Source: an uncultured Pirellula sp. (GTDB lineage Bacteria > Planctomycetota > Planctomycetia > Pirellulales > Pirellulaceae). From it: a DNA stretch of 64,000 bases. The position numbers and the translations under genes were made by a program. Positions 4,733 to 63,300 of this stretch are shown here, one piece after another (position 1 is the stretch's first letter; every line of letters begins with the position of its first letter). The stretch covers positions 1 to 64,000 of the forward strand of contig CAITIE010000051.1 in the NCBI GenBank assembly GCA_903892355.1, in the 5' to 3' direction. The notes under the pieces were generated by a model, which saw only the letters and a list, made by a program, of their open reading frames with translations, ran no database searches and had not been told where the DNA came from.

Positions 4733-4812
4733 GTGTATTTACCTCTTCAAAATTCGATAAAACAGAAAACCAAGTTGACTTTGCGATGGCAAGGAGACAA
4801 CACTCCCGCGAC

Positions 4813-6303: not shown

Positions 6304-6322
6304 CGTGAAACCTCACCGTCAA

Positions 6323-6363: not shown

Positions 6364-6381
6364 GAATCGTTCATCGTTGAT

Positions 6382-7788
6382 TTACCCCTGGGTCGGGAAT
6401 TCTCGCACTGCCAAAGTCACATGCTCTGCGAAGTCAATTCGCTGAAAATCATCCATTGCTAACCGCTCCGGATAGAATCGATCGATCCATTCCTTGATCT
6501 TTTGGCTAGTCCCCTCATTCCATCGGTACTTCGCTAGCGATGACATTGAAAGGTCGGACAGCCAACTTGCCGGCCAATCCATCCTAAGCCTCAAGCAAGC
6601 TGGCCCACCTCCATTGGCCATACTCTCATTGAGATGAACATAGCTCACACCAACGATAGGGTTTCGCGCATCAGCAATCCATGCACCAATCAATTCACGC
6701 ACTTCAGCTGATTGCTCGCACTGAGCTGGGCAAACCAAGTGCATCCCACCGTGAGGCAACGATAGGATTTGGCTATTAAATAGGTATGTGCGAACGGCTT
6801 GGTGGAGCGGGATTAATTCAGCATCAATTCGGAGGGGATAGAGTGGCTCTCCGAAAAGCGTTTCGTACTTGGTGCGAATTTCTCGAACCAGCTGGTCTCC
6901 ATTCAAAAAAGCATCCGCGTGATAGAGAAAAAGATTCCTGTTAGAGGTTGCGATAACATCATTGTGAAAGACACCTGCATCGACAGCCTCAGGGCTCTGT
7001 TCTGCGAATATTGTCTGCTCTATCGGCAATCGCAGGAACTTACTGATCGTGTGGGATGCCAGGCTGGACTGGCGTGCTCGAAAAGAAAGCATCCCCGTAC
7101 TGGCCGCGCCGGCCCCATGAACAAAAACATGCAACCCCAACGACGACTGCACCGGGTGCGGGGCGGCAAATCGCATATGATTCGCGGCTCCTTCATCTCG
7201 AAGCGGATCGACCGCGGGTATTGGCAGACAGACTTGAACCTTCTCAACACCACGAAACAGATCTGAAAACTGCAAGTAGCGTTCTACGGCCTCCATCCCT
7301 CGGTGAAGGCTGCTCGAGAGGTTCGCGAGCACCAGCCTCGAGACTCCGTCCACCGCATCTGTTCCCGGGCAAAACGTACCCGCATTAGCAGTCCACATGT
7401 AGGATGAACTGTAGGCTGCAGAAAGTAGCGCTGGCGATTCATCGGCGCATCGCTTCAGTGCATCGGCTTGCTTGGATCGATCGAACCGCTGCTTAGAATC
7501 GATCCAACCGCAACGGACGAGAAAATCCCAATGAGGCCTTGTGAGCGGCGGCAAAAAGAATTGAGGGACGCCGAGGGATGCCACGTGATCCATCTTTGCA
7601 ACGCCTTCGAGCGCTGCTGCTCTCGGATGCGATTGCTTCGCTTGATTGGCTAGACTGGCCACATTGCCGACTCCCAACCCACCAAAATGATGAGTTGGTC
7701 CGATGATTCCATCGATTTGAACTTCGGTCAATTTCGGTACTTCCTGCAAAGAACCGACAACGTGTAGCTGGCTGCTATCCAAGTTCAT
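6382..7788 (-). CDS. astB: N-succinylarginine dihydrolase
   Basis: A 468-residue protein. The N-terminus reads VQIDGIIGPTHHFGGLGVGN, then ASLANQAKQSHPRAAALEG and LGVPQFFLPPLTRP, the start typical of AstB. C-terminal signatures include LPHGGMHLVCPAQ and SMANGGGPACLRLR, which holds the expected nucleophilic Cys of this guanidine-modifying-enzyme fold. AstB converts N2-succinyl-L-arginine to succinylornithine, CO2 and ammonia, the second step of the arginine succinyltransferase pathway. No astA, astC, astD or astE is in the window. The start lies 3 bp after the stop of the upstream dehydrogenase gene, so the two form an operon. Length matches the family (about 445 in E. coli). Confidence 0.9.
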   Translation of the reverse strand: MNLDSSQLHVVGSLQEVPKLTEVQIDGIIGPTHHFGGLGVGNVASLANQAKQSHPRAAALEGVAKMDHVASLGVPQFFLPPLTRPHWDFLVRCGWIDSKQRFDRSKQADALKRCADESPALLSAAYSSSYMWTANAGTFCPGTDAVDGVSRLVLANLSSSLHRGMEAVERYLQFSDLFRGVEKVQVCLPIPAVDPLRDEGAANHMRFAAPHPVQSSLGLHVFVHGAGAASTGMLSFRARQSSLASHTISKFLRLPIEQTIFAEQSPEAVDAGVFHNDVIATSNRNLFLYHADAFLNGDQLVREIRTKYETLFGEPLYPLRIDAELIPLHQAVRTYLFNSQILSLPHGGMHLVCPAQCEQSAEVRELIGAWIADARNPIVGVSYVHLNESMANGGGPACLRLRMDWPASWLSDLSMSSLAKYRWNEGTSQKIKEWIDRFYPERLAMDDFQRIDFAEHVTLAVREFPTQG

Positions 7789-7791
7789 GGA

Positions 7792-8895
7792 TCATGCATC
7801 CGCCACATCAACGTAAACCTTGAGAGCGCTGTTATCTTCGACGAGCAACCGCATCATCTCTCGATATTGATCGAGTCCTTTGACAGGATTCGTAAGGATC
7901 TTTTGCAGGACTCCTGGGAACATAACTTCACCTAGGGCGAGATCGCGAATCCCCATTTCAAAATGCTCACGATTCGCGTTTACACTTCCCAAAAGTAGCT
8001 TGTTCCCTAGCACCCACTCGATGTTGATTTTGTCGGAAGGAACCGTCGTTGTGTTTTTGCCGCCTGTAATGCTGGTCCAAACCAAGGCGCCATTGTGACC
8101 CAGCGACTGCATTGCATTGAAGGCGATCTGCGAGGATCCTGTCGCGTCAACGATTAAATCAGCCTTGCCTACTTTGGCTGTGAGTTGCTCAAGCGACACC
8201 TCGGAGGTCGGCACATACGTTGCTTCCATTCCTTCGACGATGGAACTCTTTAGATGCGGGCCTTTGGCTCGGGCGAGTGTGAATACTTCGAGTCCCTTCA
8301 AACGCAATACCAGCGTCGACAGCAAGCCGATTTGTCCAGCTCCTAGAACGAATGCTCTCTTAGGGCTCCAGACCTTCATACGTCGCTGAGCTTCAAACGC
8401 TTGATAGATGGCCTTGGCCGCGCAGCTCATCGGTTCCATCAGCACATGCAGATGCTTCAGGCCTTTCGGGACGCGAACGATGTAATCTTCATGGTCCACA
8501 AAGTACTCGGTGAGGTAGCCATGTAGCAGGTTGATGCCTCGCTCGTAGTACGTTTCCTCACTGGTCATATCGTAGGTTCCGATCTTGTCATAAATCGAAC
8601 CACCTGGTCGACGCACTGTGGCAGTCACGTAATCTCCAACACGAATATTCCGGACATTCGGGCCAACTTGCTGAACAATCCCAAACGATTCGTGACCGAG
8701 GACCAAATAGTCATCACCCGGGGGAGGGTTACCGTAAAGCGCGTCGTTGATTTCCCGATCCGTCGCATCGACCCCCACCTTGAGCACCTTGACCAAGATT
8801 CCTTTTCCATCCGGAATCTTTTGGATATCAGGCATTGGGATGTCGCGCTGATGAACACTATTGGGTGTACCGGGACGTACTGCGATCGCTTTCAT
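7792..8895 (-). CDS. Zinc-type medium-chain dehydrogenase, glucose 1-dehydrogenase-like
   Basis: A 367-residue MDR enzyme. The N-terminal catalytic domain has [16 protein letters not shown], the zinc-binding [11 protein letters not shown] and [11 protein letters not shown], and the region [28 protein letters not shown] supplies the structural acidic residue. The cofactor domain has a Rossmann glycine motif in [10 protein letters not shown] (about residue 190), and the C-terminus ends YVDVADA. The pattern VGVDxTDxE...YERG...HGY...EP is that of haloarchaeal and Sulfolobus-type glucose dehydrogenases (NAD(P)+, D-glucose to gluconolactone). The true substrate could be another sugar. It is the first gene of a two-gene operon with astB. 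The Shine-Dalgarno is weak. Confidence 0.82.
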
Positions 8896-9256
8896 GAGAA
8901 CTCGAATACCGATATGAAGTTTTGACTGAGTATTTAGCTGGGAGCATCCTGGGGTAGGCCCACTGGCCGCACCGAATCACAAGCTCTCAAGTCCTGCCGA
9001 GAAGCGGGCCTCCCATGAGATTGGCCCGCTAACCAGCCGAACGACCGAGCCCGCTAACCAGCCGAACGACCGGAGCAGTATAGCCATCTTTCAAATTCCG
9101 TCCCATGCCAACTCGCATCCCCTTTCCCGGTTTGCGTTCGACTCCGATTCACTTCGCGATACAATTTGGCTCCCCGGCAAGGGCTCAAGAATCGATATCC
9201 TAATGTCTCTCCAGATCCTACCGTCCCTCCAGTGATTCCATCGAAGGCAATTCCCG
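8896..9256. other. Divergent intergenic region with hairpin and short duplication
   Basis: 361 bp between gdh (minus) and mnmA (plus). GCGGGCC at 9004-9010 is exactly complementary to GGCCCGC at 9023-9029 (7-bp stem, 12-nt loop, no T run). Directly after it lies a 23-bp head-to-tail duplication (9025-9072). GAAGGC 10 nt before the mnmA ATG is a fair ribosome binding site. No gene is visible. Confidence 0.55.
9025..9072. repeat. Tandem 23-bp direct duplication upstream of mnmA
   Basis: A 23-bp sequence beginning CCCGCTAACCAGCC occurs at 9025-9047 and again, identical, at 9050-9072 (period 25 bp). The first copy overlaps the right arm of the 9004-9029 hairpin. Confidence 0.9.
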
Positions 9257-10462
9257 ATGACCAATTCCACTCGCCGCGTTGTCCTAGCAATGAGCGGAGG
9301 CGTTGACTCCAGCGTAGCCGCCCACCTGCTGCTACAACAAGGCTACGAGGTGGTCGGGGTCTTCATGAGGCACGGTGAACAATCGAGTCAAGCTTGTGAA
9401 TTGGGCGACGGGCGTCCCAATCCGCTGCTTCCGATACTTGAGGGCCGACTGGACCATAAGCAAGGCTGCTGCAGCGCGAGCGACGCAGCGGATGCGAGGC
9501 GTGTTGCCGACAAGATGTCGATTCCGTTTTACGCCTTGGATCTCGAGTCCGACTTTCGGAGAATCGTTGACTACTTTGTAGATGAGTACCACCACGGGCG
9601 AACCCCCAACCCCTGTGTGCAATGCAATAACTGGATCAAGTTCGGGAGATTGTTTGAATATGCAGACGCGGTTGGAGCTCACTTCGTAGCGACTGGTCAC
9701 TACGCGCGCATGCTTAACCAGCCTTCGCCGCTCCAATCCTCAAGTTCTGATATGGCCCCCCAAAGCAAGGAAGCTCACTGCGAGAACGCAATTAACTACG
9801 AGCTGCATCGCGGGCTCGACGATGACAAGGATCAGGCCTACGTACTCACTGGAATCGCAAGATCGCTCCTGCCCAGGATGCTACTGCCGGTTGGTGGCTA
9901 TCACAAATCCGAAATCCGTAAAATCGCGACGGAGATCGGTCTAAAGGTTGCCGACAAAAAAGACAGTCAAGAAATCTGTTTTGTGACAACTGGACAACAC
10001 GCCCAATTCGTTCGACAGAAAAGCCACACAGATACATCCGGTGAAATCGTCACGAGCGACGGATGTGTGGTGGGACACCATCCCGGAATCGAAGGCTTTA
10101 CGATCGGTCAGCGAAAAGGAATTGGAGTCGCGATGGGAAGCCCCTATTTCGTCACGTCCATCGATCCGATCGCCAATCGTGTCGTCATCGGTCCCCATGA
10201 AGAACTGGGGCGAACCTGGCTGGAAGCGGATGAGGACAACTGGCTGACCGATTTCCCCCTCGATTCGCCTTGCCCCGCCGAGGTCCAAATCCGTTACAAC
10301 TCATCTCCAGAACCAGCGACCGTGACACGATGGGGTGATCGCCGGTTCCGTGTCGATTTTTCGTCACCTGTCTTCGGCGTCTCCCCGGGACAACTCGCCG
10401 CGGTCTTCTCAGGAACCCGCGCTCTGGGCTGCGGATGGATTCGGACAACCGGGCGGCAATAA
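9257..10462 (+). CDS. mnmA: tRNA-specific 2-thiouridylase MnmA
   Basis: A 401-residue enzyme that thiolates U34 at C2 in tRNA-Lys, -Glu and -Gln in the cytoplasm, using ATP and a persulfide relay. The PP-loop SGGVDSSVAA is at residues 14-23. The first catalytic Cys is in TPNPCVQCNNWIKFG (about residue 118), then ATGHYAR, and the second Cys in KDSQEICFV (about 240). FTIGQRKGIGV and YFVTSID mark the central domain, and the C-terminal barrel ends SGTRALGCGW. Length is slightly above the usual 360-380, with an insertion after the first strand (EQSSQACELGDGRPNPLLP). GAAGGC precedes the ATG. The 3' end overlaps the convergent Trm112-like gene by 54 bp. Confidence 0.95.
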   Translation: MTNSTRRVVLAMSGGVDSSVAAHLLLQQGYEVVGVFMRHGEQSSQACELGDGRPNPLLPILEGRLDHKQGCCSASDAADARRVADKMSIPFYALDLESDFRRIVDYFVDEYHHGRTPNPCVQCNNWIKFGRLFEYADAVGAHFVATGHYARMLNQPSPLQSSSSDMAPQSKEAHCENAINYELHRGLDDDKDQAYVLTGIARSLLPRMLLPVGGYHKSEIRKIATEIGLKVADKKDSQEICFVTTGQHAQFVRQKSHTDTSGEIVTSDGCVVGHHPGIEGFTIGQRKGIGVAMGSPYFVTSIDPIANRVVIGPHEELGRTWLEADEDNWLTDFPLDSPCPAEVQIRYNSSPEPATVTRWGDRRFRVDFSSPVFGVSPGQLAAVFSGTRALGCGWIRTTGRQ

Positions 10463-10714
10463 GATCGCCTCGTCTGGCAAAAGACAAGGGATACCGTCTA
10501 TCACCGGGTAAAACCAACCAAGATCTGCCGAAACTAGACCTTGCGTCGGAACAGCGGAAATTGTACGACCCAATTTCGTGCAGAGATCTCCACGTTCCAA
10601 TTGCTCTTTCAAGAAGAGCAAAACACTTGGGGATGCTAGCATTAACTTGGTTTTTGAATTCGGGCAACGGACTAGGCCCATGAGCCACTCGGGCAGATCT
10701 GCATTCCACACCAT
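10409..10714 (-). CDS. Trm112/UPF0434-like small protein
   Basis: About 101 residues. The sequence LMGLVRCPNSKTKLML near the N-terminus and LVSADLGWFYPVIDGIPCLLPDEA near the C-terminus are the two halves of the Trm112 fold, a small methyltransferase activator in eukaryotes and archaea; bacterial members are mostly uncharacterised. GAGGAG lies 10 nt before the ATG at 10714, which I prefer to an upstream start at 10759. The usual CPxC pair is reduced to CPNS and only one late Cys remains, so zinc binding is doubtful. The gene overlaps both neighbours: 54 bp with mnmA and 35 bp with the divergent 10680 gene. Confidence 0.8.
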   Translation of the reverse strand: MVWNADLPEWLMGLVRCPNSKTKLMLASPSVLLFLKEQLERGDLCTKLGRTISAVPTQGLVSADLGWFYPVIDGIPCLLPDEAILLPPGCPNPSAAQSAGS

Positions 10715-12449
10715 CGCTAAGCGACTCCTCGCAGGTTTCGTTGTTTGCTTGATGCACATCGAGCTTTCATCGCAGCATGCATTGGCGTATCAGTCCGAGC
10801 CAATCTCGTCGAGTTTTGCAGCACCGTCAAGTTTTGGAGCACCGTCAAGTTTTGGAGCACCGTCAAGTTTCACGGGCGCGAACGCGAATGCATCGGGGTC
10901 CTCCGACCAATTCCAGGGCTCCGCACCGGTCATGACGTTCCTAGACATGTACACCGGACAACCCTGGGGTCGCTATGTTGTATCCGAATCGGTGACCGTT
11001 CCAAAGTACGAATATCGGGAGGTCAAAGAGCGGGTTTATGTGCCGACCTGGGTTCAAGAGCCCAAATCCACAACATTGACTCAATACGACCCAATCGTCT
11101 CGTACCAACTAAGACCTCGCTCGGTACCGAGCATGAATCCGTTCTACCCCCCACAACAGATCGTTGAATACGTTCCCATCGTCCAGTACCAACCGCGGAA
11201 CGTCCAGACGACACAGATGACGCAGTACCAAAAGTACGAAGAGCGTGATGTCAGCAGAATGGTCCCCGTTCTCGTGAACGCAACCGAACAGAGGTCTCGT
11301 TTCGTCGATCGCCCCTTGAACGCAAACCCTAACGCACCGATATCGTCCAGCAACTTGGTTCAATACTCCGCAAACATCGCACAAGCCAACCGGACTTCGG
11401 CTCGCTACCCAACACGATCAATCGACTATCCAAGCCAACCTGTGTACGGCGCACCAGTGTACGGCAGTAACCCATCGGCCCTCGCTTGGTCAACGCCCAA
11501 AACAATGATCCCTCCTCCCCCAACGACTGTTCCCGTTTCCTACGCTTCATCGACGACTCCGGTGGCCGGACAGTACAACGTCGCCGCCGGTTACCCAAAC
11601 CCTGCGATGGCCCCCACTGCGTTACCTAATCAAGTGAGCTCAGCTCCTATCGTTCCCATCCCGCAGACCACTACGGCATTGCCTCCAGCCTACGCAGGGG
11701 CGGGCAGCCCCTTACCCACCTACACCGCAGCACCCGCAGGCATACCTCCCACCAGCATCGCCTACGGACAACCGCAGTATGGGGCTCCGCAGTATTATGG
11801 AGCTCCGCAGTATGGAGCTCCGCAATATAGTGCAACTCCCTATGGGGCAGTTAGCCCGACCATGAATGGCTATCCACCTCCACCCTACTACGCGAATGCC
11901 TATAATCCCAGCGCGTATTATCCCTCGTGGCTCACCGCTCAAGGGAGTCTCTTTAGCACCAACTGGTTCACACAAAATGGTGGCACGGCCTCAATGACTA
12001 CAACGGGCGGATTTCCTTACACGGGATATCCTCCAGGCGCCTACCCACAACCAAGCGGTGCGGCCCCCGGGTACAACAGCCCTACGAACTACACAGTCCC
12101 TCAGCTCGCATCGAACAACTTAGGGTATTCGTCCAATTCTCCAAACTACTGGGGACGGACAACACCACCGATCTCATCGCCCGCGGGAACCCCTGGTGTC
12201 GCTCCCGCTTACCCCCCGACCACACCCTACCCATCGCCTGGCTATCCACCTGCCGGAGCTTACCCACCTGCCGGAGCTTACCCGCCTGCAGGTCCTCCGA
12301 GCTATGGGACGCCGGCGTACGGCTATGGGACGCCAGGGTATGGACAACCCAGCTACGGAGCCCCGGTACCGCCGCCCTACGGTTATTCCACAACGGCGAA
12401 TTACCGCGACCCTTACCAAACTGGGATGCCCCCCACGGTTATGCGTTAA
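10680..12449 (+). CDS. Secreted Pro/Tyr/Gly/Ser-rich low-complexity protein
   Basis: About 589 residues. The chosen ATG at 10680 gives a signal peptide (basic SGRSAFHTIAKR, then LLAGFVVCLM, ending near ALAYQ); an earlier in-frame ATG at 10578 would place the signal internally. The region after the signal has SSFGAP repeats. A middle domain of about 150 residues (MTFLDMYTGQPWGRYVVSE to VLVNATEQRSRF) is rich in Tyr, Val and Gln-Pro with alternating strand-like stretches. The rest is disordered, with QYGAP, YPPAGA and PGYG repeats. Such composition suggests an extracellular matrix, stalk or cell-surface protein, but no family is recognisable. The ATG lies within the 5' end of the opposite-strand Trm112-like gene. 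Confidence 0.82.
   Translation: MSHSGRSAFHTIAKRLLAGFVVCLMHIELSSQHALAYQSEPISSSFAAPSSFGAPSSFGAPSSFTGANANASGSSDQFQGSAPVMTFLDMYTGQPWGRYVVSESVTVPKYEYREVKERVYVPTWVQEPKSTTLTQYDPIVSYQLRPRSVPSMNPFYPPQQIVEYVPIVQYQPRNVQTTQMTQYQKYEERDVSRMVPVLVNATEQRSRFVDRPLNANPNAPISSSNLVQYSANIAQANRTSARYPTRSIDYPSQPVYGAPVYGSNPSALAWSTPKTMIPPPPTTVPVSYASSTTPVAGQYNVAAGYPNPAMAPTALPNQVSSAPIVPIPQTTTALPPAYAGAGSPLPTYTAAPAGIPPTSIAYGQPQYGAPQYYGAPQYGAPQYSATPYGAVSPTMNGYPPPPYYANAYNPSAYYPSWLTAQGSLFSTNWFTQNGGTASMTTTGGFPYTGYPPGAYPQPSGAAPGYNSPTNYTVPQLASNNLGYSSNSPNYWGRTTPPISSPAGTPGVAPAYPPTTPYPSPGYPPAGAYPPAGAYPPAGPPSYGTPAYGYGTPGYGQPSYGAPVPPPYGYSTTANYRDPYQTGMPPTVMR
10809..10871 (+). repeat. 18-bp tandem repeat coding SSFGAP units
   Basis: Units TCAAGTTTTGGAGCACCG at 10827-10844 and 10845-10862 are identical, preceded by a diverged copy at 10809-10826 and followed by a partial one. 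They encode Ser-Phe-Gly/Ala-Ala-Pro-Ser repeats just after the signal peptide. Confidence 0.9.
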
Positions 12450-12564
12450 ATCCCAGCCGTTTCTATCATTCTCTTGATCCAACCTCGCCACCTTCTTCGC
12501 TGTATAAGAAACACCCATCCAGCGAATCTTGGCACTTTGTTTGCTGTGTAGGTCTCAGCTCGGT

Positions 12565-12593
12565 TTGACATAGGGAATCCTTGGTATTTTAAT
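12565..12593 (+). promoter_or_regulatory. Possible sigma70-type promoter upstream of the cytochrome c gene
   Basis: TTGACA at 12565-12570 is followed 17 bp later by TTTAAT (12588-12593). It lies about 100 bp before the ATG at 12693. Planctomycete promoter consensus is poorly known, so this is a pattern match only. Confidence 0.4.
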
Positions 12594-12692
12594 CAAGGGG
12601 AGCCCGCTGTTGCCGACGGACCTTTCGATGAGTCAACGAAGGGTTCGACATGATTCCCTGCCCTGCACTCGTTTCTGGAGTTACAAAACCGA

Positions 12693-13100
12693 ATGAAAAA
12701 GTTTGTCATTTACACTGCCGTCGCTTTGATTGCTACTGCGGTATCTCCGAGCGCATTCGCCATCAAAGAGTTCGGCGAAACATGGACTAAGATCTACGCG
12801 GAAAAGAGCACGAACGAGGAATTTAAGAAGTTAGTCGCAGAAGCGAAGTGCAACGTTTGCCACATCGATGGCGAAAACAAGAAAAAGCACAATCCCTACG
12901 GTGACGCAGTGGAAGCCGCGGGTATCACCAAGAAAAACTTCCCTGCTCCCAAATTCAAGCAAAACCCTGACGAAGTCCGCAAGGAAGTCGAAAAGATCCT
13001 GAAGACTTTGGAAGACAAAAAAGCTGAAGGACAATCCAAAACTTTTGGAGAACGGATCAAGGAAGGCTTGCTCCCAGGGGGTGACGTGAAGGGCAAGTAA
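12693..13100 (+). CDS. Small secreted c-type cytochrome-like protein
   Basis: A 135-residue protein with a clear signal peptide (MKKFVIYTAVALIATAVSPSAFA, cleavage near residue 23). It has a single heme-binding motif CNVCH at residues 53-57, followed by HIDG and a lysine-rich helix region (KKNFPAPKFKQNPDEVRKEVEKIL), ending in a charged tail. No distal Met ligand is obvious. It most likely carries one heme c in the periplasm and passes electrons; the partner is not apparent from the neighbours. CTGGAGTT lies about 12 nt before the ATG. A strong terminator at 13170-13208 follows, so it is monocistronic. Confidence 0.85.
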   Translation: MKKFVIYTAVALIATAVSPSAFAIKEFGETWTKIYAEKSTNEEFKKLVAEAKCNVCHIDGENKKKHNPYGDAVEAAGITKKNFPAPKFKQNPDEVRKEVEKILKTLEDKKAEGQSKTFGERIKEGLLPGGDVKGK

Positions 13101-13169
13101 AAGCCTGACAACTCGTCCTAAAATTAGGGTCTCCGTCGAACCGAAACACCATTTCGTTCGTTTATACTA

Positions 13170-13208
13170 AGTGCGTCCGGGCTCAGGAGTTCGGACGCAC
13201 TTTGATTT
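13170..13208 (+). terminator. Rho-independent-type terminator after the cytochrome c gene
   Basis: AGTGCGTCCG at 13170-13179 pairs perfectly with CGGACGCACT at 13192-13201 (10 bp, 12-nt loop), followed by TTGATTTT. It separates the cytochrome gene from the DUF1080 gene and argues against any start of the latter before 13202. Confidence 0.8.
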
Positions 13209-13318
13209 TCGGGATGCTTTGTTCCCAAGTCGTTGGCGTCTCGAGGTGGGTTTTGGCTCCCTTGAACTTCCGTCGCGATCGCTACCATCCTCCCCTCCCA
13301 ATTCTGAAAGTAGTATCC

Positions 13319-13975
13319 ATGCTGCGTTTTACGATCATGTTCGTCGCTTTGGCGGGTTTGCTCCCGCAGACCACTTCGCGTGCCTTTGCTCAGGAATCCA
13401 CCAAGACTGAGACCGAAGTCGGATTTGTGAGCTTGTTCGATGGCAAGTCGATGAATGGCTGGAAAGTGAATGAAAACCCAACCAGTTGGAAAGTCGAAAA
13501 CGGCACTTTGGTTTGCAATGGTGAGCGAAGCCACATTTTTTATATCGGCGATGACAAACCCTTCAAGAACTTCCACTTCAAGGCAGATGTGAAAACGGAA
13601 CCAAACAGCAACGCCGGTATCTACTTCCACACCAAATACCAAGACTCCGGTTGGCCAAAGTACGGATTTGAGTGCCAAGTCAACTTGTCCTACAAATCCG
13701 ACCCACGAAAGACGAGCAGCCTGTACGCGGTCAAGGACGTGTTAGAACCCGCCGCGAAGGACAATGAATGGTACACCCAAGAGATCATCGTTGTCGGAAA
13801 AAAGGTCACCCTAAAAGTCAACGGCAAGACTCTTGTTGAATACGTCGAACCAGACGACCAAAAAGCTGGCGCAGACTTCACTCGCAAGATCGATGAGGGA
13901 ACCTTTGCCCTCCAGGCCCACGATCCAGGAAGCAAGGTTTACTTCAAGAATCTTCGCGTCAAGCGATTGGATTAA
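13319..13975 (+). CDS. Secreted DUF1080 (3-keto-disaccharide hydrolase-type) protein
   Basis: About 218 residues from the ATG at 13319, which has GAAAG 9 nt upstream and gives a signal peptide (MLRFTIMFVALAGLL, ending RAFAQ). The DUF1080 domain (PF06439) fills the rest: VGFVSLFDGKSMNGWKV at the start, WKVENGTLVC, NAGIYFHTKYQ, YGFECQVNL, NEWYTQEIIVVGKKVTLKVNGKTLVEY, and EGTFALQAHDPGSKVYFKNLRVK at the end. This fold is concanavalin A-like, binding or cleaving sugars. Members are abundant in Planctomycetes and several act on 3-keto-disaccharides; this one's substrate is unknown. It is followed 15 bp later by a membrane protein gene. Confidence 0.9.
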   Translation: MLRFTIMFVALAGLLPQTTSRAFAQESTKTETEVGFVSLFDGKSMNGWKVNENPTSWKVENGTLVCNGERSHIFYIGDDKPFKNFHFKADVKTEPNSNAGIYFHTKYQDSGWPKYGFECQVNLSYKSDPRKTSSLYAVKDVLEPAAKDNEWYTQEIIVVGKKVTLKVNGKTLVEYVEPDDQKAGADFTRKIDEGTFALQAHDPGSKVYFKNLRVKRLD

Positions 13976-48148: not shown

Positions 48149-51100
48149 CTATGGGGTCATTAAAAATTCATCGAGGTTCAGGACCACGTTGCAAAGCGTA
48201 GTCCACGCCGCCAACTCGACCGGATCAGCCCCAGTTGGCAAAGGGCCGATAGGCTCCGTGGCCAACTTCGTAGCCTTGTCTCGTTGATCACTCAACTCCT
48301 GGACTGCTTGTGCCAGCAATCCTTTCACGGCAACCATCTCGCGATCATTCGGAGTACGGGATAACGCGTGATGAAATAGCCGACCGATTCGCTCCTCCTC
48401 AGAACCGTTTGGAAGTTCATGAACCAACACGAGACGAGCCAATCCCTGTGCAGCTTCCAGAAAGACAGGATCATTGAGGGTGACGAGTGCTTGAAGGGGC
48501 GTGTTGGTTCGATCGCGTTTCAGCACACAAACTTCGCGGCTCGGGGCGTCGAAAGTCGCCATGGCTGGATACGGATTGGAACGTCTCCATTGCGTGTAGA
48601 TCGCGCGACGGAATCGGTCTTCTCCTTGGCTGGTCTCCCAATCCGTGCGAGACCCGAATGCCGCACTCAATCCCATCGACGGTTGAGGCGGACGGGTTGG
48701 GGGACCGTAAAAACGGTGAGACAGTAGTCCCGCAGACGCGAGCGCCATATCGCGCACTTGTTCCGCCGCAACTCGGAATCGCGGTCCTCGAGAAACAAAG
48801 AGATTCTCTGGATCCTCTTCGTAGCGGTTCGGATCCACGCTAGATCGCTGCTGGTATGCCGAGGAAAGAACGATCGATCGAATAAATCGTTTCATATCCC
48901 AGCCTCCTCGTATCAGGTCCAACGCAAGGTAATCGAGCAGCGGTTGATTGGTTGGCAGGTCTCCTTGAGAGCCAAACTCTTCGCTCGTCCGTACGATACC
49001 AACACCAAAGAGGGATTCCCACGTTCGGTTGGCTATGACCCGGGCGGTGAGCGGATTATCTGAGGAGACTATCCATTGCGACAACTCCAGCCGGGACAGC
49101 GACGGATTGTTATCGGGAGTGGATGCTCCTGTCAAAAAGACTTTCGGCACCCCAGGCTCCACCGATTCGCCGGTCACGCGATAATTCCCTCGCAGTTGGA
49201 TTCGGGTCTCTCGCCTCTTTTCTTTGGCCAACTCTCGCAACACTGGAACCGTAGTCACCGGTTTCAATCCATCGAGTTCGGTCCGTAGCTTATCCCGTTG
49301 CTGCCGCATTGGGGCGCGAGTCGGTGTGACCATGCGGACGTAATACTGATGCAATTGGTCCTGCTCTGCCGTCTTCTGCTCTGCAGTATTCTTTGGCGCC
49401 AGAATATCGCCATCGCCTTCTTTGGCATCGCTTCGAACGATGTTCAAGATCTCGCTCGGTATCGCAAGCATGTCCGCAGTGCGTGAATCCGTTGTCAGGC
49501 TTACGGAGAATCGAGCCAGAACCAATCGTTTGTGCGGCGAGTCAAACCCAAGCTGCAATCGGAGAATCTCGGTTCTGGCGGCAGTTTCTCCAACAGCGGT
49601 TGGTGGGTTCTTTGGTTTTGCAACTCCACCTGCGATCTTGATGGCATGCGGTGTGTGAACCGACCCGCCCACAGCCCAACCACTCTTTGGATCGGTATCA
49701 ATCGCGTTGGAGGCTGGAAACCCACTTTGCGAATAGTCCGCGCTCGCGATACGTGGAGTCCAATCGCTTTGCGTTTGCATCGCCCAGCGATTCTCAGCGA
49801 CAGCTTTCGTCAATGTTGTTTGCCAAACCTCATTGCGATTCGCATCTAGCAGCGCGATCTTGGCACCCGACAATCGATCGAGCAGATTGCTATCCGTCCG
49901 ATTCCATACTGCAATCGAATCGACAACTTTCATCTCTCCCAAATCAAGCTCCCACCACGGGGCTTCGCTGATCGCCGTGTGGGTCGTGGAATTATCCGCC
50001 CAATTTCCGGATGTGTTGCCATCGATGGCGCGAAGAGCGGCCCCGCCGAGTATCTCGGAACTTTGGGTAGGTTTGCCATGAGGAGCAACATTTTCCGATC
50101 CCGAGAAAACCTGAACCTCCGCCAGAGAAAGGATCCGCTCTTTGCCGGGCAAATCGATGCGAACGAACTGACCTCGCGTCTTTGCCGCGTTGGGATCAAA
50201 AAGGCTAGCCGAAACATGGGTCAGCACGAAGTTTCCATCACCTTGCCCAGCCCCTTGATTGGGCAACGCCGCATCGGGTCTCGATTCGATCCGTATACCG
50301 GTCAGGCTTTCCGCCGTAATCCCGTTTGGCAATGGGATCTCGAGAGTGAGAGTGTCGTTGTCCGATTTGGAATCGACCTGAATAAGACCTTGCTCTTGGA
50401 CCGTTCCGGGATCCCCCGATTTGGTTTGGATCGAAGAAGGCGTCACCGCTGACCATTCCAAGGGCCGCTTGTACTTTCCCTCCCACTCCCTCTGCTCCGC
50501 GATCAACCCTGGATCCGCGAGATCGATCTGCTTCTCGATCCTTTCCAGATCGGTCTGAAGTTCCTCGCGTCGGTTGCGTTGCTCGGGTGAAAACCACGCA
50601 TAGGTCGGCGACTCATCACCGCGGTCCGCATCTTCGCTTTGGTTCAAAACTGCAAAGACTTGGAAGTACTCTTTTTGGGAAATCGGATCGTATTTATGGC
50701 TATGGCATTGGGCACATGCCATCGTCACCCCCATCCAAACGGCCATCGTGGTGTTTACGCGATCGACGATTGCAACGTTTCGGAACTCTTCGTCGTTCGT
50801 TCCACCTTCGTTATTGGTCAGCGTGTTTCGATGGAAGGCGGTGGCTACCAACTGATCAGGGGTTGGGTTGGGCAATAGATCTCCGGCCAATTGCTCGATC
50901 GTGAATTGATCGAACGGCATGTTGCTGTTGAATGCCCGAACAACCCAATCGCGATAGGCCCAGATAGTCCTGGGTGGGTCATCCGCATAGCCCGCGGAAT
51001 CCGCGTAACGAGCCATATCCAGCCAGCGCCGCCCCCAATGCTCTCCGTACGCGGGTGATGCGAGCAATCGGTCCACCAACTCTTCGTAGGCAACAGGGGA

Positions 51101-51784
51101 AGGATTGTTGATAAAAGCAATCTGCTCATCGAGTGTTGGAGGCAGTCCGGTTAGATCCAGGGTGACTCGTCGCAGAAGCGTCGCCCTATTAGCTCGAGGA
51201 GCAGGCTCCCAACCTTTCTCCGCCAATTTGCGCAACACCAACCGATCGATGACCGATTCATGCCAATCTGGAAATCGGGACTCCCAGTCGGAGACCTGGG
51301 CTTCCACCGAGGGCAACCGGGGTGTCTCGTACGACCAGTGCTTTGCGTAGGTAGCACCGGACGCAATCCATCGTTGGAGCAACTCCGTTTCGCGAGCGGT
51401 TAGTCGCTCGCCGAAGTGCGGAGGAGGCATCCGTTCTTCGTCGTCTTGGGACGAAACCCTACGCAACAATTCCGATTCGGAAACATTCCCAGGAACAATT
51501 GCAGTTCGCCCCGACTCTGCCTTGGAAATGGCGCTTTCGAAACTATCGAGACGCAATCCAGCCTCGACGGTATTTTCGTCCGGACCGTGGCACGCAAAGC
51601 AACGGTTCGACAAGATCGGACGAATCTCAGTCTGAAAATCGACCTTGCCTTTCGCCTGGTTGGCTTGCCACGCACCGACAGGACTTGTACCGAGCAGCAT
51701 CCAAACGATCAGCAGCGATACCTGTGTTACCACGGATCGCGAAAGCTGTGTCACCACAGGTCTTGGAAAGAATCGAGATTTCAT
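48149..51784 (-). CDS. PSD1 and planctomycete cytochrome C domain protein (DUF1549/DUF1553)
   Basis: 1211 residues. After a signal peptide (QVSLLIVWMLLGTSPVGAWQ) comes the planctomycete cytochrome C domain with the heme motif RCFACHGPDE (about residue 62) and AGLRLDSFESA, MPPPHFGERLT. DUF1549 follows (about 175-390: VDRLVLRKLAEKGWEPAP, HWGRRWLDMARYADSAGYADD, FDQFTIEQLAGDLLPNP, CAQCHSHKYDPISQKEYF, where a second CxxCH lies). Residues ~450-720 form a beta-rich insert with a discoidin-like segment (AIDGNTSGNWADNSTTHT, WWELDLGEMKVVDSIAVWNR). DUF1553 ends it (LARWIVS-like LSQWIVSSDNPLTARVIANRTWESLFG). Usually tied to polysaccharide use. It precedes the DUF1501 gene. Confidence 0.94.
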   Translation of the reverse strand: MKSRFFPRPVVTQLSRSVVTQVSLLIVWMLLGTSPVGAWQANQAKGKVDFQTEIRPILSNRCFACHGPDENTVEAGLRLDSFESAISKAESGRTAIVPGNVSESELLRRVSSQDDEERMPPPHFGERLTARETELLQRWIASGATYAKHWSYETPRLPSVEAQVSDWESRFPDWHESVIDRLVLRKLAEKGWEPAPRANRATLLRRVTLDLTGLPPTLDEQIAFINNPSPVAYEELVDRLLASPAYGEHWGRRWLDMARYADSAGYADDPPRTIWAYRDWVVRAFNSNMPFDQFTIEQLAGDLLPNPTPDQLVATAFHRNTLTNNEGGTNDEEFRNVAIVDRVNTTMAVWMGVTMACAQCHSHKYDPISQKEYFQVFAVLNQSEDADRGDESPTYAWFSPEQRNRREELQTDLERIEKQIDLADPGLIAEQREWEGKYKRPLEWSAVTPSSIQTKSGDPGTVQEQGLIQVDSKSDNDTLTLEIPLPNGITAESLTGIRIESRPDAALPNQGAGQGDGNFVLTHVSASLFDPNAAKTRGQFVRIDLPGKERILSLAEVQVFSGSENVAPHGKPTQSSEILGGAALRAIDGNTSGNWADNSTTHTAISEAPWWELDLGEMKVVDSIAVWNRTDSNLLDRLSGAKIALLDANRNEVWQTTLTKAVAENRWAMQTQSDWTPRIASADYSQSGFPASNAIDTDPKSGWAVGGSVHTPHAIKIAGGVAKPKNPPTAVGETAARTEILRLQLGFDSPHKRLVLARFSVSLTTDSRTADMLAIPSEILNIVRSDAKEGDGDILAPKNTAEQKTAEQDQLHQYYVRMVTPTRAPMRQQRDKLRTELDGLKPVTTVPVLRELAKEKRRETRIQLRGNYRVTGESVEPGVPKVFLTGASTPDNNPSLSRLELSQWIVSSDNPLTARVIANRTWESLFGVGIVRTSEEFGSQGDLPTNQPLLDYLALDLIRGGWDMKRFIRSIVLSSAYQQRSSVDPNRYEEDPENLFVSRGPRFRVAAEQVRDMALASAGLLSHRFYGPPTRPPQPSMGLSAAFGSRTDWETSQGEDRFRRAIYTQWRRSNPYPAMATFDAPSREVCVLKRDRTNTPLQALVTLNDPVFLEAAQGLARLVLVHELPNGSEEERIGRLFHHALSRTPNDREMVAVKGLLAQAVQELSDQRDKATKLATEPIGPLPTGADPVELAAWTTLCNVVLNLDEFLMTP

Positions 51785-56817: not shown

Positions 56818-59628
56818 TCAGTTGAGCATTTCCTCCAATTCAGCAATCACATCTGCTGGATTTAATTCCGCGATGATGTGATAGCGCAAGTTCGATTGAG
56901 AGCCTGCGCTGTCGCTTGCGGAAATTTCGATCGGGATCGAAACAGGCAGTTTCTCGGAATAGCGCCCTATGAAATGGCGTGTATGCTCGCGAACACGCCG
57001 CTGGTAATTCGCAACTTCAGTAGCGATCCCGCTGCCGCGAACGTTATTCTTCAAATAGGCAGCAAGCTTTCGATTTGCGTAGGGGACAAAAGTTTCCGGA
57101 TCCAACGTAATCACCCCTGTATCAGCATCGATTAACATGGGGATACGATCTGACACGAGCGAGAACTTGGTTCGCCCCCGTGCGTTAAGGACTTCATGAC
57201 GTAGCTCACTTTTCTGGTCGGTCACGATCAAAAAATGAGACTGCTTGGGCGAAATAGCGAATAACGCGTCTGATTTTTTCGGAGGCAGAGTTAGATCTTT
57301 CTTATACAGATTTCGTCCGAAATAACACCATAACCCACGTTGTGTTCCGGTGAACACCCCCAAGCTCTCATTGCTTGGCGAACTCACAAAACCAGGCTGT
57401 GGAACCAAATCCAACAACTCGGGCTTGCTGGATTTAGGGGTTTGGAGAAGCAACTTCCGAATAGCATGTTTTCCAGAAGTCAGGTCGCCTGGTACTGACT
57501 GCACGTCGAACTTTATTTTCTCGCGTGTTCCTGGTATGTCGTAAATGGATGCATCTTGATTCCGATTTCTAGATTTTCCCGCGTTTCGAATCGACTCGCT
57601 GAGAACAGGCTTGGACTTGGAAATCAGCATGCTCGGGATATTAGGCTGACTCTCATCGATATCAAACAGTCTCTCGGGCGCAACGAGCAGTTTTCTTTCC
57701 CCGTCAAAACCAAAAAGAAATCCTTGAGATAGATACCCAAACGGTGTCCACAGTTGCCCTTCCCAGCTTTGATACTGCTGGAAGGAGACTTGGCCCGCTT
57801 CCGCCGATTTCAATGTCCCCTCGGGGAATACGTGCAACCCCGTGTTATCTTGGACCAGGAAAACATCACCTCCGGAACCGATGTATTTGATCGGGGTAGA
57901 AAACGTCAACTCCTTGACATAATCCAGATTGGATCTCTCAAAGAAGTAACATTGGTTCATATTTTCGGAAGCCGGGACGACAGCAATGCGCGATTTTGAA
58001 AATGCAGCGGTACCTGCGTAACGACTGAGATTCCTTTCAGCGACAATCCGCATGGAGTTCAAATCGATCAATGCGATCCTTCGTTGCTGGGTCAAGGAGG
58101 CATCTCGATTGGGCGTATCCCATATCAGTGCCTGTTGATTGGCATCGTCGATCTCGAAACCTCCGGGAGTGAACGGGAGAGTCAAATGCCTCGAAGCGAC
58201 AAATACCTCCACCTGCAGAATGTCGCTTTCGGTCCCATCAGTAATCGTGGCGGAAAGAAGTTGCGAACCCAACTGCTCTCGGGACGGGGTCCATCGGATA
58301 CGATTCCCTTCCTGGGTAACTCCGGAAGGGGTCGCAACCTGTGTCACACGGGCGCGCGAATCGATGGTTTCCAGCGTTACTTCAGCTTCGGTACCGGCGG
58401 TCAAAACCAACGCGTCAGCGGGTCTCAAGGACAAACGAGGCACCTCAGGTAACTCCAATTCGTCCCAAGGAAGGAAGTGCAACGAGTCCGTATCCGCGAG
58501 AATTAGCAGACGCTGTGTCGGAACCACGAGCAATTGCGGCAACAGAGCATCCGGAAACATAGTGGATCCGCCTTGGGCCGGTACCAAATCCACGTTTGCC
58601 GAATCCACAGGAAGGACAGGATCCCGTTTGACGGTGTAACTGATCGAAATCTCCTTCCCCACTGGACTCAAGGAGCGCGTCGAGCACGCTAGGATTTTGA
58701 TAACCTTTTCTTCGCTCCTGCGATTCCCCGAGGATTTCTCCGCTTTCATTCCCCCGTCCGCGAATCGCTCACTCTCCAGTTCCTCGTATCCGATGACAAA
58801 CGGTTCGTTACCGAGAAACACGCTCGGGGAGATCGGCAACGCAACGTTTTTCTTCACCAGTTCCATGCTGTAGATCTCGCGTCCGACGATGGCTTGTTCT
58901 TCAAAAGGGTCGAGGCATAATTGCGGCTTTGCCACGCCGACCGAATGGACATAGGAGAATCGTTGTAAATCCTCGCTAAACTTGGAAAGCCGGGAGGAAA
59001 CCCGAATCGAGCGAGGGTTCTCGACAAGATACAGCGTGCGGCCGGACGGGGATGGCGTGCACGAATACGCGCGACCAGGAATGTCACCGTGACTCATGAA
59101 GTCCTTGACGCTGACTATTTCCGTTGAAGGCTCTCGCGAATCTCTCGTGGTGCAGTAGATGAACGGATCGTTGGTACTCAAGGATGTTGCAAGGTGGAGG
59201 CACCGACTCGCCTTGAGTTGAATCGAAGCCAATACCGAAAATTCATCGCTGCGTGTGGCATCGACCAAATGGAGTTCAGCCCCTGATTCGCAAGCAATCG
59301 CGAACAGCCTCCGCTGCCCGTAATTTTTATAAACGACATGGGACGGCTTGTCGGGCAACTGAACCTTTGAAACAGGTCGTCCCAAACCTGCTTGCAGATC
59401 GTCTGGACGGAAAAAATGCACTTCCTGATCCTGCCGATGAATCGCTGCAATGACGCCAGTCTCTGGTTGAACCGCGAACCTCGAGTAGGAGTCCGAAAGA
59501 GGCACAGACTTTACCTCTGCACGAAGGCTCGATGCAGCGATTGCTCCCAACGCACAGTGCAAAACAAGCAAGCTAGAGAATCGAGTGATCAACACGATGA
59601 TTGACTGGTTTCCAATGAATCTAAACAT
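56818..59628 (-). CDS. Secreted beta-propeller-type protein, paralogue 3 of a three-gene array
   Basis: 936 residues; the ATG at 59628 overlaps the preceding gene's TGA by one base. Signal peptide (FSSLLVLHCALGAIAASSLRAE). The first ~380 residues have repeating strand units (VIAAIHRQDQEVHFFRPDDL, RLFAIACESGAELHLVDATR) like a propeller. Residues ~390-480 form an Ig/cadherin-like segment (LRPADALVLTAGTEAEVTLETIDSRARVTQVATPSG). A second propeller-like part follows (GGFEIDDANQQALIWDT onward). The C-terminal ~100 residues form the module shared with the two upstream genes: MLIDADTGVITLDPETF, a helical stretch, and LPVSIPIEISASDSAGSQSNLRYHIIAELNP. No enzyme motif. Last gene of the operon. Confidence 0.8.
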   Translation of the reverse strand: MFRFIGNQSIIVLITRFSSLLVLHCALGAIAASSLRAEVKSVPLSDSYSRFAVQPETGVIAAIHRQDQEVHFFRPDDLQAGLGRPVSKVQLPDKPSHVVYKNYGQRRLFAIACESGAELHLVDATRSDEFSVLASIQLKASRCLHLATSLSTNDPFIYCTTRDSREPSTEIVSVKDFMSHGDIPGRAYSCTPSPSGRTLYLVENPRSIRVSSRLSKFSEDLQRFSYVHSVGVAKPQLCLDPFEEQAIVGREIYSMELVKKNVALPISPSVFLGNEPFVIGYEELESERFADGGMKAEKSSGNRRSEEKVIKILACSTRSLSPVGKEISISYTVKRDPVLPVDSANVDLVPAQGGSTMFPDALLPQLLVVPTQRLLILADTDSLHFLPWDELELPEVPRLSLRPADALVLTAGTEAEVTLETIDSRARVTQVATPSGVTQEGNRIRWTPSREQLGSQLLSATITDGTESDILQVEVFVASRHLTLPFTPGGFEIDDANQQALIWDTPNRDASLTQQRRIALIDLNSMRIVAERNLSRYAGTAAFSKSRIAVVPASENMNQCYFFERSNLDYVKELTFSTPIKYIGSGGDVFLVQDNTGLHVFPEGTLKSAEAGQVSFQQYQSWEGQLWTPFGYLSQGFLFGFDGERKLLVAPERLFDIDESQPNIPSMLISKSKPVLSESIRNAGKSRNRNQDASIYDIPGTREKIKFDVQSVPGDLTSGKHAIRKLLLQTPKSSKPELLDLVPQPGFVSSPSNESLGVFTGTQRGLWCYFGRNLYKKDLTLPPKKSDALFAISPKQSHFLIVTDQKSELRHEVLNARGRTKFSLVSDRIPMLIDADTGVITLDPETFVPYANRKLAAYLKNNVRGSGIATEVANYQRRVREHTRHFIGRYSEKLPVSIPIEISASDSAGSQSNLRYHIIAELNPADVIAELEEMLN

Positions 59629-61334
59629 CAACGCTTGGAACCTTCACGAAGGCTTTTTAGTTCAGACTCCAACCGCTCAAGCTTGGACTGAAGTGCTTTG
59701 AGCTTGACAGGTGGCGCACTTACCCCTGGCTTCTTGATTGCGTTGTCCTTCTTACTAACAAGGATGGGGTCGCTAAAAATCCTCTCCAATTCCTCTTCGA
59801 CAGCTTCCACTGGGATACTGTCATACAAAGCATACTGCAGAACAACTTCGTTTCCCTGCGAGTCGGAAGCTATCAACTTCACAGGAATGTTTACGAGGAT
59901 CTGATTCTTTCCGACGGAAAGCAAACTGCGCATCATCGACTCTCGGCCATAAAGTCCCTCGAGGAACTCGGCAACATTCTTTCCATCGGTAGCGCTCTTG
60001 CGAGCCACCTGCAATAGTGCGTTGAGCCCTTGCTCCCGTGCCAGCGAGTTCTCAATCCGCAAATCCCCTGTCGCTGGTTCGATTGTACAAAATGTATAAT
60101 CCGAGACTAGTTGGTAATTGTATGGCGGAATACCACCGGCAATTCCGTGGGTCAATTTTGTCTGCGTTTGCAGGGAATCCAAAAACAACTTGGTTTGGAT
60201 GTGATCCCAAGTCATCGGGCCGATTTTAACGGGATAGAGCGGATTTCGAGTGTACGCGACCATCGACCCGGTCCCGATCGCAATCCCACCGATCGCATTT
60301 GCATGTAGATGGAGCGACGACGGATCGATCTTGAAAGGAAATCGCGATTCCCGATGGCGAAAGAGTTTCCTCGCATCGACCGGACTCGTTGGGAAATCCA
60401 GAGACACATCGACTAAGGGAGGATCTGAAAAGGGTACGGTTGCTGTGTACGCCACCACCGGCGCATACCCATTCGGCGGAGAGATTGGACCAAATTGAAA
60501 AACATTACCAGCGTCGATACTTGAAATCCGAACTCCGGTGTTGGTGCTGCTTGGGAGCCGATCCAAATCCCCGCGAACAGACTCAACAACTCGCTGCTGC
60601 AGGATGGGGATCCCTTCGTTTGATCGACTCGAAATCACTTGCAACCGGTCATTCAACCAGAGTGAACCTTGGTTGGTACTGATCCCGACACTTTCAATCC
60701 TGGATTTCACCAAAGGAACGGGACTGGGCAGTCGCTGAAAACTCGGCGTATCGAAGATGACGATATCATCACCACGGATGTCATCCGAATCCGATTGAAG
60801 CAATAGTGATTGGTTTCGCGACACCATCTGTCGAACTTGGAACGGCAATCGAAACACCCGAACCTGCACTAAATCCTGCTCTTGGTACACCTCGAGCTTT
60901 TTTAACTTTGGATAGATGATCGCTAACTCGCTATCCACCCAGCATACTTGCTTCGGCTGCATGCCCAATACAACTTCATTTCGCAGCTTTGGACTTTTCA
61001 AGTCGATGATGGCGAGTTTTGTCGTGTGCTGCGTCAAATCAATTCCACTATCCCTCATCTGAGGTTCGCGATACCAAACCGCAAACTTATGCTTATTGGG
61101 ATGAACCGCGATTCCTTGGATCGGCAATGGAACCTCAGCGATTACGAATTGACTGACGGACGAGGTAACTTCAGATCGAGCGTCCGATTGGGCGCAGACT
61201 AAGTTAATAGGACCAAGAATAGACTGAAAAACCACGAGCCATGCGATCATCGAATATCGACTCATCGACATGCTCGCGGTCAGATCAACCTGCAATAAAT
61301 AATTCGTTGGTAATTGTTGTCGATGAATCAGCAT
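59628..61334 (-). CDS. Secreted beta-propeller-type protein with coiled-coil tail, paralogue 2
   Basis: 568 residues from the ATG at 61334; an ATG at 61271 would give a shorter signal peptide (SRYSMIAWLVVFQSILGPINLVCAQ) and is equally plausible. The N-terminal half has propeller-like strands: PIQGIAVHPNKHKFAVWYRE, TTKLAIIDLKSPKLRNEVVLG and KQVCWVDSELAIIYPKLKKLEVY. Then GGIPPYNYQLVSDYTFCTIEPATGDLRIEN, a helical linker and LVNIPVKLIASDSQGNEVVLQYALYDSIPVEAVEEELERIF, the module shared with its two neighbours. A basic coiled-coil LKALQSKLERLESELKSLREG ends the protein. Gap 17 bp from the upstream paralogue gene. Confidence 0.8.
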   Translation of the reverse strand: MLIHRQQLPTNYLLQVDLTASMSMSRYSMIAWLVVFQSILGPINLVCAQSDARSEVTSSVSQFVIAEVPLPIQGIAVHPNKHKFAVWYREPQMRDSGIDLTQHTTKLAIIDLKSPKLRNEVVLGMQPKQVCWVDSELAIIYPKLKKLEVYQEQDLVQVRVFRLPFQVRQMVSRNQSLLLQSDSDDIRGDDIVIFDTPSFQRLPSPVPLVKSRIESVGISTNQGSLWLNDRLQVISSRSNEGIPILQQRVVESVRGDLDRLPSSTNTGVRISSIDAGNVFQFGPISPPNGYAPVVAYTATVPFSDPPLVDVSLDFPTSPVDARKLFRHRESRFPFKIDPSSLHLHANAIGGIAIGTGSMVAYTRNPLYPVKIGPMTWDHIQTKLFLDSLQTQTKLTHGIAGGIPPYNYQLVSDYTFCTIEPATGDLRIENSLAREQGLNALLQVARKSATDGKNVAEFLEGLYGRESMMRSLLSVGKNQILVNIPVKLIASDSQGNEVVLQYALYDSIPVEAVEEELERIFSDPILVSKKDNAIKKPGVSAPPVKLKALQSKLERLESELKSLREGSKR

Positions 61335-61351
61335 ACGTCTGCGTCGTGGGA

Positions 61352-62977
61352 CTACTTTCGCGAATCCGACTTGAGGGAAGAAATCTCTTTTTCGATTGCA
61401 CTGATACGGTGATTGAGTCGAGTCAGTTCGTCCGATGTGTACGGGTGATCGATGCTCTCAAGTGGTACTGTAGCGATCACAAAATAGCGGATAGGAATTC
61501 TCGTATTCGCAGCATCGCAAACAGAAAGATCGATCGGAACCGAAATTGGAAGATCTACCAGCAGTGGAATCCCAACCCGTTGCTTCAATGTTTCACAATC
61601 GCTGACAACCTTGCCGAGGATATCCTGGGGTGTGATCCCAGGCTTGCCATCCACGGCCCTTAACTTTTTCGCAAAATCCATCGCGCATACATTCTTTAGC
61701 GCCTCGTTGTCCACCGTAATGTCACCGCTATCCTCGGACAAAGTGATCCCAACGATGTCATGATGCATCGCAAATCGATATGGCAATTTGCCTCCTCGAA
61801 TGGAGTGACGGAGGCGTGTGGAACCAGAACTATCGAGCACAAAAGCAGACTGTTGAAAATCCCATGCTAAGGGCTCCTGCCCATTCAACCGTTCAAAGCG
61901 AGTGCAAATCAATTCGCTGTCCACCGCTACAACCAAATCGCCAACGTCGTTGATCACCATGAGGGGAATCGGTCTCGATGTATTCCCGGGACGCTCGCCT
62001 TTGATGAGAACTTGTCGATTCCTGTGCGATGATTCGAACATGATCGTGTCGAGCAGCAACTCAAATTGGAATCCTTTTTTGTGAACCTGAGAGTCCTTGA
62101 CCCAATGAATCGGTGCTCGAAGCTCCACGAAACCTGCATTGCCAGGCAAGACTATGGGGCTGTGGTACAGATGACCATCCACCGCATCGATATCGTAATT
62201 CTCACTTCGCAATCGCCCTCGCCAATCGTTCGTAGGCAGCGGCTCATAAGTATTCAAGACTTCGTTTGCTAAAGAACGAAAGCTGGGCTTGGTTAAAGAA
62301 ATCGTTGTGGGCGATGCTACGATCAGCTTACAATCGAGCTTGTCATCGTACAAACACGGATCTACATAATTGCCTGACGGAGTCAAAACTCGCTGCTTAG
62401 TTGCCATCAACGACTGGCGACTCTTACGCTGGGTGCGAATAAGTCGCCTTTGCGTCAGTGAATAGACCTCGACACCTTGCGACGACTGAACGACCAAGAT
62501 ATCTCCGGATACTTTCATGTCCAATGGTTGGCTTTCCAACACAAATGATTGGGCCATGGAAAGGTCAGAACGGTTAGCCACCATCACCTTTTTTTGGTCG
62601 CTGCAAAACACAATCCAGTTCGATTGAATCGCAATCAACAGCGGTGGATGGTTCAGCGGAAAATTGCCCGAGCTTTCGTTTGTTGTCACGTTCACGACAC
62701 GATAAAACAAAGCCGCAGGCTTGTCTCCTTGACCGGCGGATTCGCTCTCGAATCCCCAAACAACCAAACTGCTAGACTCCGCCGCAATGGCGATGCCTTG
62801 CACCGCGAGAGGGACCCTGAATTGCCGCAATGGTTGCATTGGATCCTGAGCAAACAATCCCGCTGGCAACGAAAAAAGGAACCCAACAAGCAACAACCAT
62901 ATCGATGTGCTTATCAGGGGATTGGTTTTTCGGCGGGGTTCGCCCACAATTGACTCACTCAAACAAACCATTTGCAT
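61352..62977 (-). CDS. Secreted beta-propeller-type protein with coiled-coil tail, paralogue 1
   Basis: 541 residues. Signal/anchor ISTSIWLLLVGFLFSLPAGLFAQ near residues 23-45. The propeller-like part starts PLAVQGIAIAAESSSLVVWGF, PPLLIAIQSNWIVFCSDQKKVMVANRS and FVLESQPLDMKVSGDILVVQSSQGVEVYS, closely matching the strand order of paralogue 2. GGKLPYRFAMHHDIVGITLSEDSGDITVDN then leads to LLVDLPISVPIDLSVCDAANTRIPIRYFVIATVPLESI, the shared module. The tail LTRLNHRISAIEKEISSLKSD is a coiled coil. First gene of the array; promoter lies in the 62978-63300 gap shared with a divergent gene. Confidence 0.8.
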   Translation of the reverse strand: MQMVCLSESIVGEPRRKTNPLISTSIWLLLVGFLFSLPAGLFAQDPMQPLRQFRVPLAVQGIAIAAESSSLVVWGFESESAGQGDKPAALFYRVVNVTTNESSGNFPLNHPPLLIAIQSNWIVFCSDQKKVMVANRSDLSMAQSFVLESQPLDMKVSGDILVVQSSQGVEVYSLTQRRLIRTQRKSRQSLMATKQRVLTPSGNYVDPCLYDDKLDCKLIVASPTTISLTKPSFRSLANEVLNTYEPLPTNDWRGRLRSENYDIDAVDGHLYHSPIVLPGNAGFVELRAPIHWVKDSQVHKKGFQFELLLDTIMFESSHRNRQVLIKGERPGNTSRPIPLMVINDVGDLVVAVDSELICTRFERLNGQEPLAWDFQQSAFVLDSSGSTRLRHSIRGGKLPYRFAMHHDIVGITLSEDSGDITVDNEALKNVCAMDFAKKLRAVDGKPGITPQDILGKVVSDCETLKQRVGIPLLVDLPISVPIDLSVCDAANTRIPIRYFVIATVPLESIDHPYTSDELTRLNHRISAIEKEISSLKSDSRK

Positions 62978-63300
62978 GCAACTCGGCTGCGGGAATGCGA
63001 TACCTTCCCAAGATCCAAATCAATTGGTCCGTATCCAATTGATTGTAGCGTTTCACGATCCAACCGTTGGATGATTCGCCAACCGTTCGTTTATTCGACC
63101 TTTGGCAAGCAAACGGATTACTTTTGCCCTGCCTATCCTCGCTTTCTACCTTCGATTGTGCGAATGCAGCTTCGGCATCCTGCCCAGCTTTCCCCGCTTC
63201 GCAACCGCCGACAGGATTGACTCAGGAATCTATTGAAGTTGGACGATGAACGTGCTATCTGATGGGACTCTAACGCTCGTTACGTCTGCACCGGGGTCAT
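62978..63300. other. Divergent promoter region of the paralogue cassette and the 63301 gene
   Basis: 323 bp between divergent starts. I see no gene and no clear -35/-10 pair; GGGG about 5-8 nt before the ATG at 63301 could be a ribosome binding site. Divergent placement suggests common control. Confidence 0.5.

Follow-up and report, generated by a model that had tools for sequence, protein, structure and literature searches.

Three adjacent genes at positions 56,818 to 62,977 of a 64,000-nucleotide stretch of DNA from an uncultured Pirellula sp. (the window; genome G000, contig C51) encode proteins that an earlier note on this DNA took to be secreted paralogues with a common C-terminal unit, perhaps assembling as a surface complex. 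The locus raises the question of whether these proteins share a common ancestry, of what parts they are built, and what they may do in the cell envelope. Their open reading frames were confirmed in position, shared strand and length, and all of the features of the triad described here lie on the reverse strand. Gene C (61352..62977, 541 aa) and gene B (59628..61334, 568 aa) each encode a putative signal peptide, a single beta-propeller, a C-terminal module and a coiled coil, and gene A (56818..59628, with its ATG at 59628; 936 aa) encodes a putative signal peptide, propeller 1, an Ig-like linker, propeller 2 and the module, with no coiled coil after the latter. Translation of gene B may instead begin within the 568-aa frame, at an ATG located some 21-28 codons after its first codon. 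N-terminal hydrophobic stretches that fit signal peptides are present in all three of the proteins, and the description of them as secreted is consistent with these stretches; A, B and C are probably exported.

Our analyses have delimited the shared C-terminal unit as a module of about 145 residues, located at 61439..61891 in C, 59784..60230 in B and 56827..57297 in A (limits from a profile and, for B, also from predicted secondary structure). The pair scores of these modules against 1000 shuffles give z values of 9.6 (A-B), 18.0 (A-C) and 15.3 (B-C), and a profile of 19 modules from outside the genus (genus members excluded) matches A, B and C with E values of 5.4e-22, 3.9e-10 and 5.3e-15, respectively. 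These values are far from background, so that the result on which the earlier note would have dropped the common unit (viz. similarity at the background level) is not what was found. Judged by sequence comparison, the modules of A, B and C are homologous beyond doubt, and this homology supports the paralogy of the three proteins. When B is used as the query against its own genome, the matches are B itself, C and, weakly, A, and no others.

The module follows a pattern in which a GG-x-x-PY-type strand (in many members) and a TG-D/V-I/L strand are succeeded by a helical stretch of 35-60 residues and, after the helices, by P-(V/I)-x-(I/L)-x-A-x-D-(S/T) and a second long strand. The AlphaFold2 models of both A and B lay it out as strands, two or three helices and a hairpin of two 12-13-residue strands, with a two-helix insert, the long beta hairpin and a final helix predicted in A (pLDDT about 78-92) and a three-helix insert and the long beta hairpin in B. 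Pfam and NCBIfam hold no model for the module family, and in these libraries A, B and C have no match above cut-off and resemble no enzyme family, in agreement with the earlier statements that no family is recognised and no catalytic motif is visible. As defined by its sequence, the C-terminal module is a domain without a named family in the libraries searched, and no description of its family was found in the literature searched.

A beta-propeller directly precedes the module in the models of A and B, and in C a propeller is indicated by alignment with B, to which C is homologous along its length at an identity of about 22%. The AlphaFold2 model of A (mean pLDDT 72) matches tandem WD propellers with a Foldseek E value of 1.2e-15, and its propeller 1 (residues 37-388) superposes on YncE (7seu) with a Z score of 23.4 and an rmsd of 3.2 Å over 276 aligned residues. 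The model of B (mean pLDDT 62, with low confidence for residues 158-304 in the middle of the propeller) matches propellers with Z scores of up to 13.7 and rmsd values near 5-8 Å. At the level of predicted models, these matches confirm the term propeller-like for A and B. The likeness is to seven-bladed propellers of the YncE and WD40 type; however, the identity is about 10%, none of the three proteins reaches the cut-off of a WD40 or YncE profile in Pfam or NCBIfam, and they carry extra parts (viz. Ig-like linker, module and coil). Sequence searches with A and with the module found no solved relative, and because the structure searches used long chains and the matches listed were propellers throughout, the missing structural match for the module is uninformative.

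The Ig-like linker that joins propeller 1 of A to propeller 2 (58189..58458) shows a He_PIG-like pattern (...IRWTPSREQLG...), and in the alignment of linkers across the family the pattern W-x-P...G recurs with W and G invariant. The linker at the same place in one relative (L040) exceeds the Pfam cut-off for He_PIG (PF05345); A, B and C have no match to this family, and the best Ig-type match of A is to Big_9 (E 0.11, below cut-off). Several modules also give weak Ig-type profile matches, and the profile match of linker to module is weak (23% probability). The profile scores do not support the possibility that the module is a plain He_PIG or cadherin domain; the linkers share features with these Ig families, but the module differs from them in having two to three predicted helices between its strands.

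The tails of B and C consist of a short, mildly basic heptad helix, in agreement with the claim that two of the three proteins end in a basic coiled coil. The tail of C, ELTRLNHRISAIEKEISSLKSDSRK (61355..61429, assigned from sequence and motif count), contains the RhxxhE site RISAIE, and that of B, LKALQSKLERLESELKSLREGSKR (59631..59702, assigned from the predicted helix 495-519 of the model and motif count), contains the variant KLERLE, with K replacing R. At least one RhxxhE is found in 9 of 12 coil tails of the family, as against 0.6 expected when the hydrophobics are fixed and the other letters are shuffled, a comparison to be read with the caution that the ordinary e/g charge patterns of coiled coils raise the chance value and that the 12 tails are related. 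This motif stabilises parallel trimeric coiled coils (PMC5940361). The suggestion of the coils as contacts is supported, and the motif gives support, short of proof, to a trimer-like state, in that the coils of the triad may be trimeric.

The three genes nearly touch one another, the B/A junction reading TGATG with a 1-bp overlap and C and B being separated by 17 bp, exactly as first read. Both the 17-bp gap and the 1-bp overlap are unchanged in the orthologous triad of G005, and in G008, where A is broken across two contigs, the C/B gap is only 1 bp and the B/A overlap is retained; the order C-B-A and the tight spacing are common to these three species (G000, G005 and G008). Within the named collection, the two nearest relatives of the triad are MAGs, viz. 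an uncultured Pirellula sp. (isolate ErkenSummer) and a Planctomycetota bacterium (isolate K_Offshore_surface). Because the between-species dN/dS is 0.12-0.20 for each of A, B and C, at synonymous distances of up to about 1, all three of the genes are under purifying selection. Scans for promoters and terminators gave nothing beyond chance level. On the interpretation preferred below, C, B and A would belong to a single operon encoding exported paralogues.

The divergent gene at 63301 (425 aa), which runs beyond the window to contig position 64575, had been put forward as a possible part of the set, a suggestion that is not borne out. Each of the 27 genomes searched in the genus has this gene, whereas 3 of them have the triad and 24 are without it; the gene is hence independent of the triad, it was rejected as a partner, and it is likely a core gene. 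Its full-length protein shows a weak match to DUF6268 (16.3 bits, E 0.0052) below the Pfam cut-off of 22.8. The intergenic region from which gene C and the 63301 gene diverge contains a 19-bp unit twice (63060-63097, 84% match). Elsewhere in the window, a large gene at 48149-51784 appears by eye to encode a PSD1/DUF1549-DUF1553-like planctomycete protein with cytochrome-type CxxCH.

Members of the module family were found by profile search in 6 of the 27 genomes of the genus, in 15 of the 397 sampled genomes of the order and, with a wider profile, in 10 of 392 genomes of the phylum (6 of them secure), weak partial-coverage matches in the phylum (G173, G276, G295, G442 and G466) being left out of the member count. 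The family is thinly scattered in Planctomycetota. All of the secure members lie in large frames of about 520-1900 residues, and outside the triad they are mostly single genes. A typical solo member of ~970 residues consists of a signal peptide, a propeller, an Ig-like linker, a second propeller, the module and a coiled coil. A has this long layout minus the coil, and B, C and L073:6395-7963 begin at the second propeller and represent a half-length form. In a tree of the second half of the proteins, A groups with the long form L039 (95/92) and B with C (95/91), both joins carrying a long-branch warning.

Some relatives are anchored in a membrane or fused to other domains. In the protein L070:936-5345, propeller-Ig-propeller-module is preceded by a zinc ribbon at the N-terminus, a membrane anchor and Trypsin_2 (E 5e-23); L021 has a membrane anchor and a C-terminal DUF1559; L040 has a C-terminal membrane anchor after its coil; and the membrane-anchored module protein L022 has a Trypsin_2-propeller-Ig protein as its direct neighbour. 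In L077:7243-10896, an N-terminal Peptidase_S9-type (alpha/beta hydrolase) domain (E 1e-7) is fused to propellers and module; a possible lipobox (TLSSC) was also observed in this protein. The single N- or C-terminal anchors of L022, L021, L070 and L040 would place the propellers of these proteins at the outer face of the inner membrane, and the anchored and fused variants together suggest that the unit is placed in the envelope, more likely in the periplasm.

The interpretation that we tentatively prefer, at a probability somewhat short of even, is that A, B and C are an exported envelope scaffold that oligomerises via module and coil, A, B and C probably together. The triad operon would give rise to scaffold proteins that are exported to the cell envelope and are not enzymes; their propellers would serve as binding platforms for ligands or proteins, and the module behind each propeller would, with the coiled coil, join the subunits. 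A would be the long form without a coil of its own and B and C the half-length copies that bring module and coil, and the likely product would be an assembly of A, B and C, located in the periplasm or at the outer face of a membrane and possibly held together by a three-stranded coil. A counterpoint to such a complex is that B and C are highly divergent from each other and from A, and hence need not bind each other; co-transcribed genes need not form one complex. A further formulation, to which we assign a low probability, is that of a hitherto undescribed hetero-oligomeric machine of the planctomycete envelope in which tandem-propeller A is bundled in trans by the coils of B and C, the platform being coupled in other species to trypsin-like or S9 hydrolases for modular substrate recognition.

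The main rival of the scaffold interpretation is that the proteins work with envelope hydrolases as recognition or regulatory partners, the propeller-module unit presenting or gating substrates for a trypsin-like protease or an S9-type hydrolase, to which it is fused in some species and which acts in trans in others. This is suggested by the fusions in L070:936-5345 and L077, by a Trypsin_2-propeller-Ig gene that directly adjoins an anchored propeller-module gene in G004, and by an HtrA-like gene close to the family member of L039. The trypsin-like protease-propeller-Ig proteins (L022:3485-6175, and L132 and L133 by homology) share the propeller-Ig layout of the family, but a protease domain is lacking in A, B and C, and the triad is adjoined by no protease gene. 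A homologue of the G004 protease-propeller gene was found in G005 but not in G000 and G008, and most solo members lack an obvious protease neighbour in the regions read by eye. We regard this explanation as somewhat unlikely.

An identity as outer-surface adhesins or S-layer-like components, perhaps forming layers or filaments, would agree with the build of 1l0q, an archaeal surface-layer protein of the tandem YVTN propeller-PKD type, which is likewise exported, combines propellers with an Ig-type beta-sandwich and is among the matches of B; but it comes from another domain of life and is matched by propeller fold rather than by shared sequence. The 1l0q protein is not known to contain a helical insert or a coil. 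Among the proteins listed in a planctomycete proteome study (PMC8567305) is a putative cell-surface protein that has seven Ig-like domains. Against a surface role, relatives have either an anchor of the inner-membrane type together with a zinc ribbon at the N-terminus or an anchor at the C-terminus, A, B and C show no recognised sorting signal, and the triad, being present in 3 of the 27 genomes of the genus, is too rare for a general surface layer. We consider this role improbable, and within the earlier interpretation, in which the paralogy, the shared module, the want of a known family and the coil contacts hold up, a surface location is not favoured over the periplasm or membrane face given the single membrane anchors of several relatives, and a filamentous assembly is unsupported. 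It is also unlikely that the triad is a plain expansion of paralogues which form separate homo-oligomers with their own ligands and are linked by shared transcription alone. The low identity of B and C, their divergent propellers and the mostly single genes of relatives elsewhere would fit such an expansion, but the order and tight spacing have been held in three species at a synonymous divergence near 1, and the missing parts are complementary, A being without the coil and B and C without propeller 1.

The envelopes of planctomycetes are unusual, and many of the multi-domain proteins that these bacteria export have no assigned role. New planctomycete protein architectures are reportedly the subject of work by Mahajan in 2020 in Mol Biol Evol. 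The folds of the parts, and exported propeller-Ig scaffold proteins as a kind, are already known; no description was found of a long scaffold that is split into a long form without the coil and two half-length copies with it. The present work contributes a domain that has no name and a coherent family, some fusions of which point to hydrolases, and the triad provides a natural case in which the parts of a long scaffold protein seem to be shared out between it and two copies of half its length. The family is open to modelling and testing in cultured relatives. Two further clusters were observed, one of which, in G714 (L070:936-5345 and L070:6474-16888), comprises three module genes and one propeller-Ig gene. 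The other (L135, G002:C22, about 3600-13600) encodes propeller-type proteins that are exported or anchored and lack the module; one of them has a start that resembles a protease, and some end, as judged by eye, in a short SHD1-like domain.
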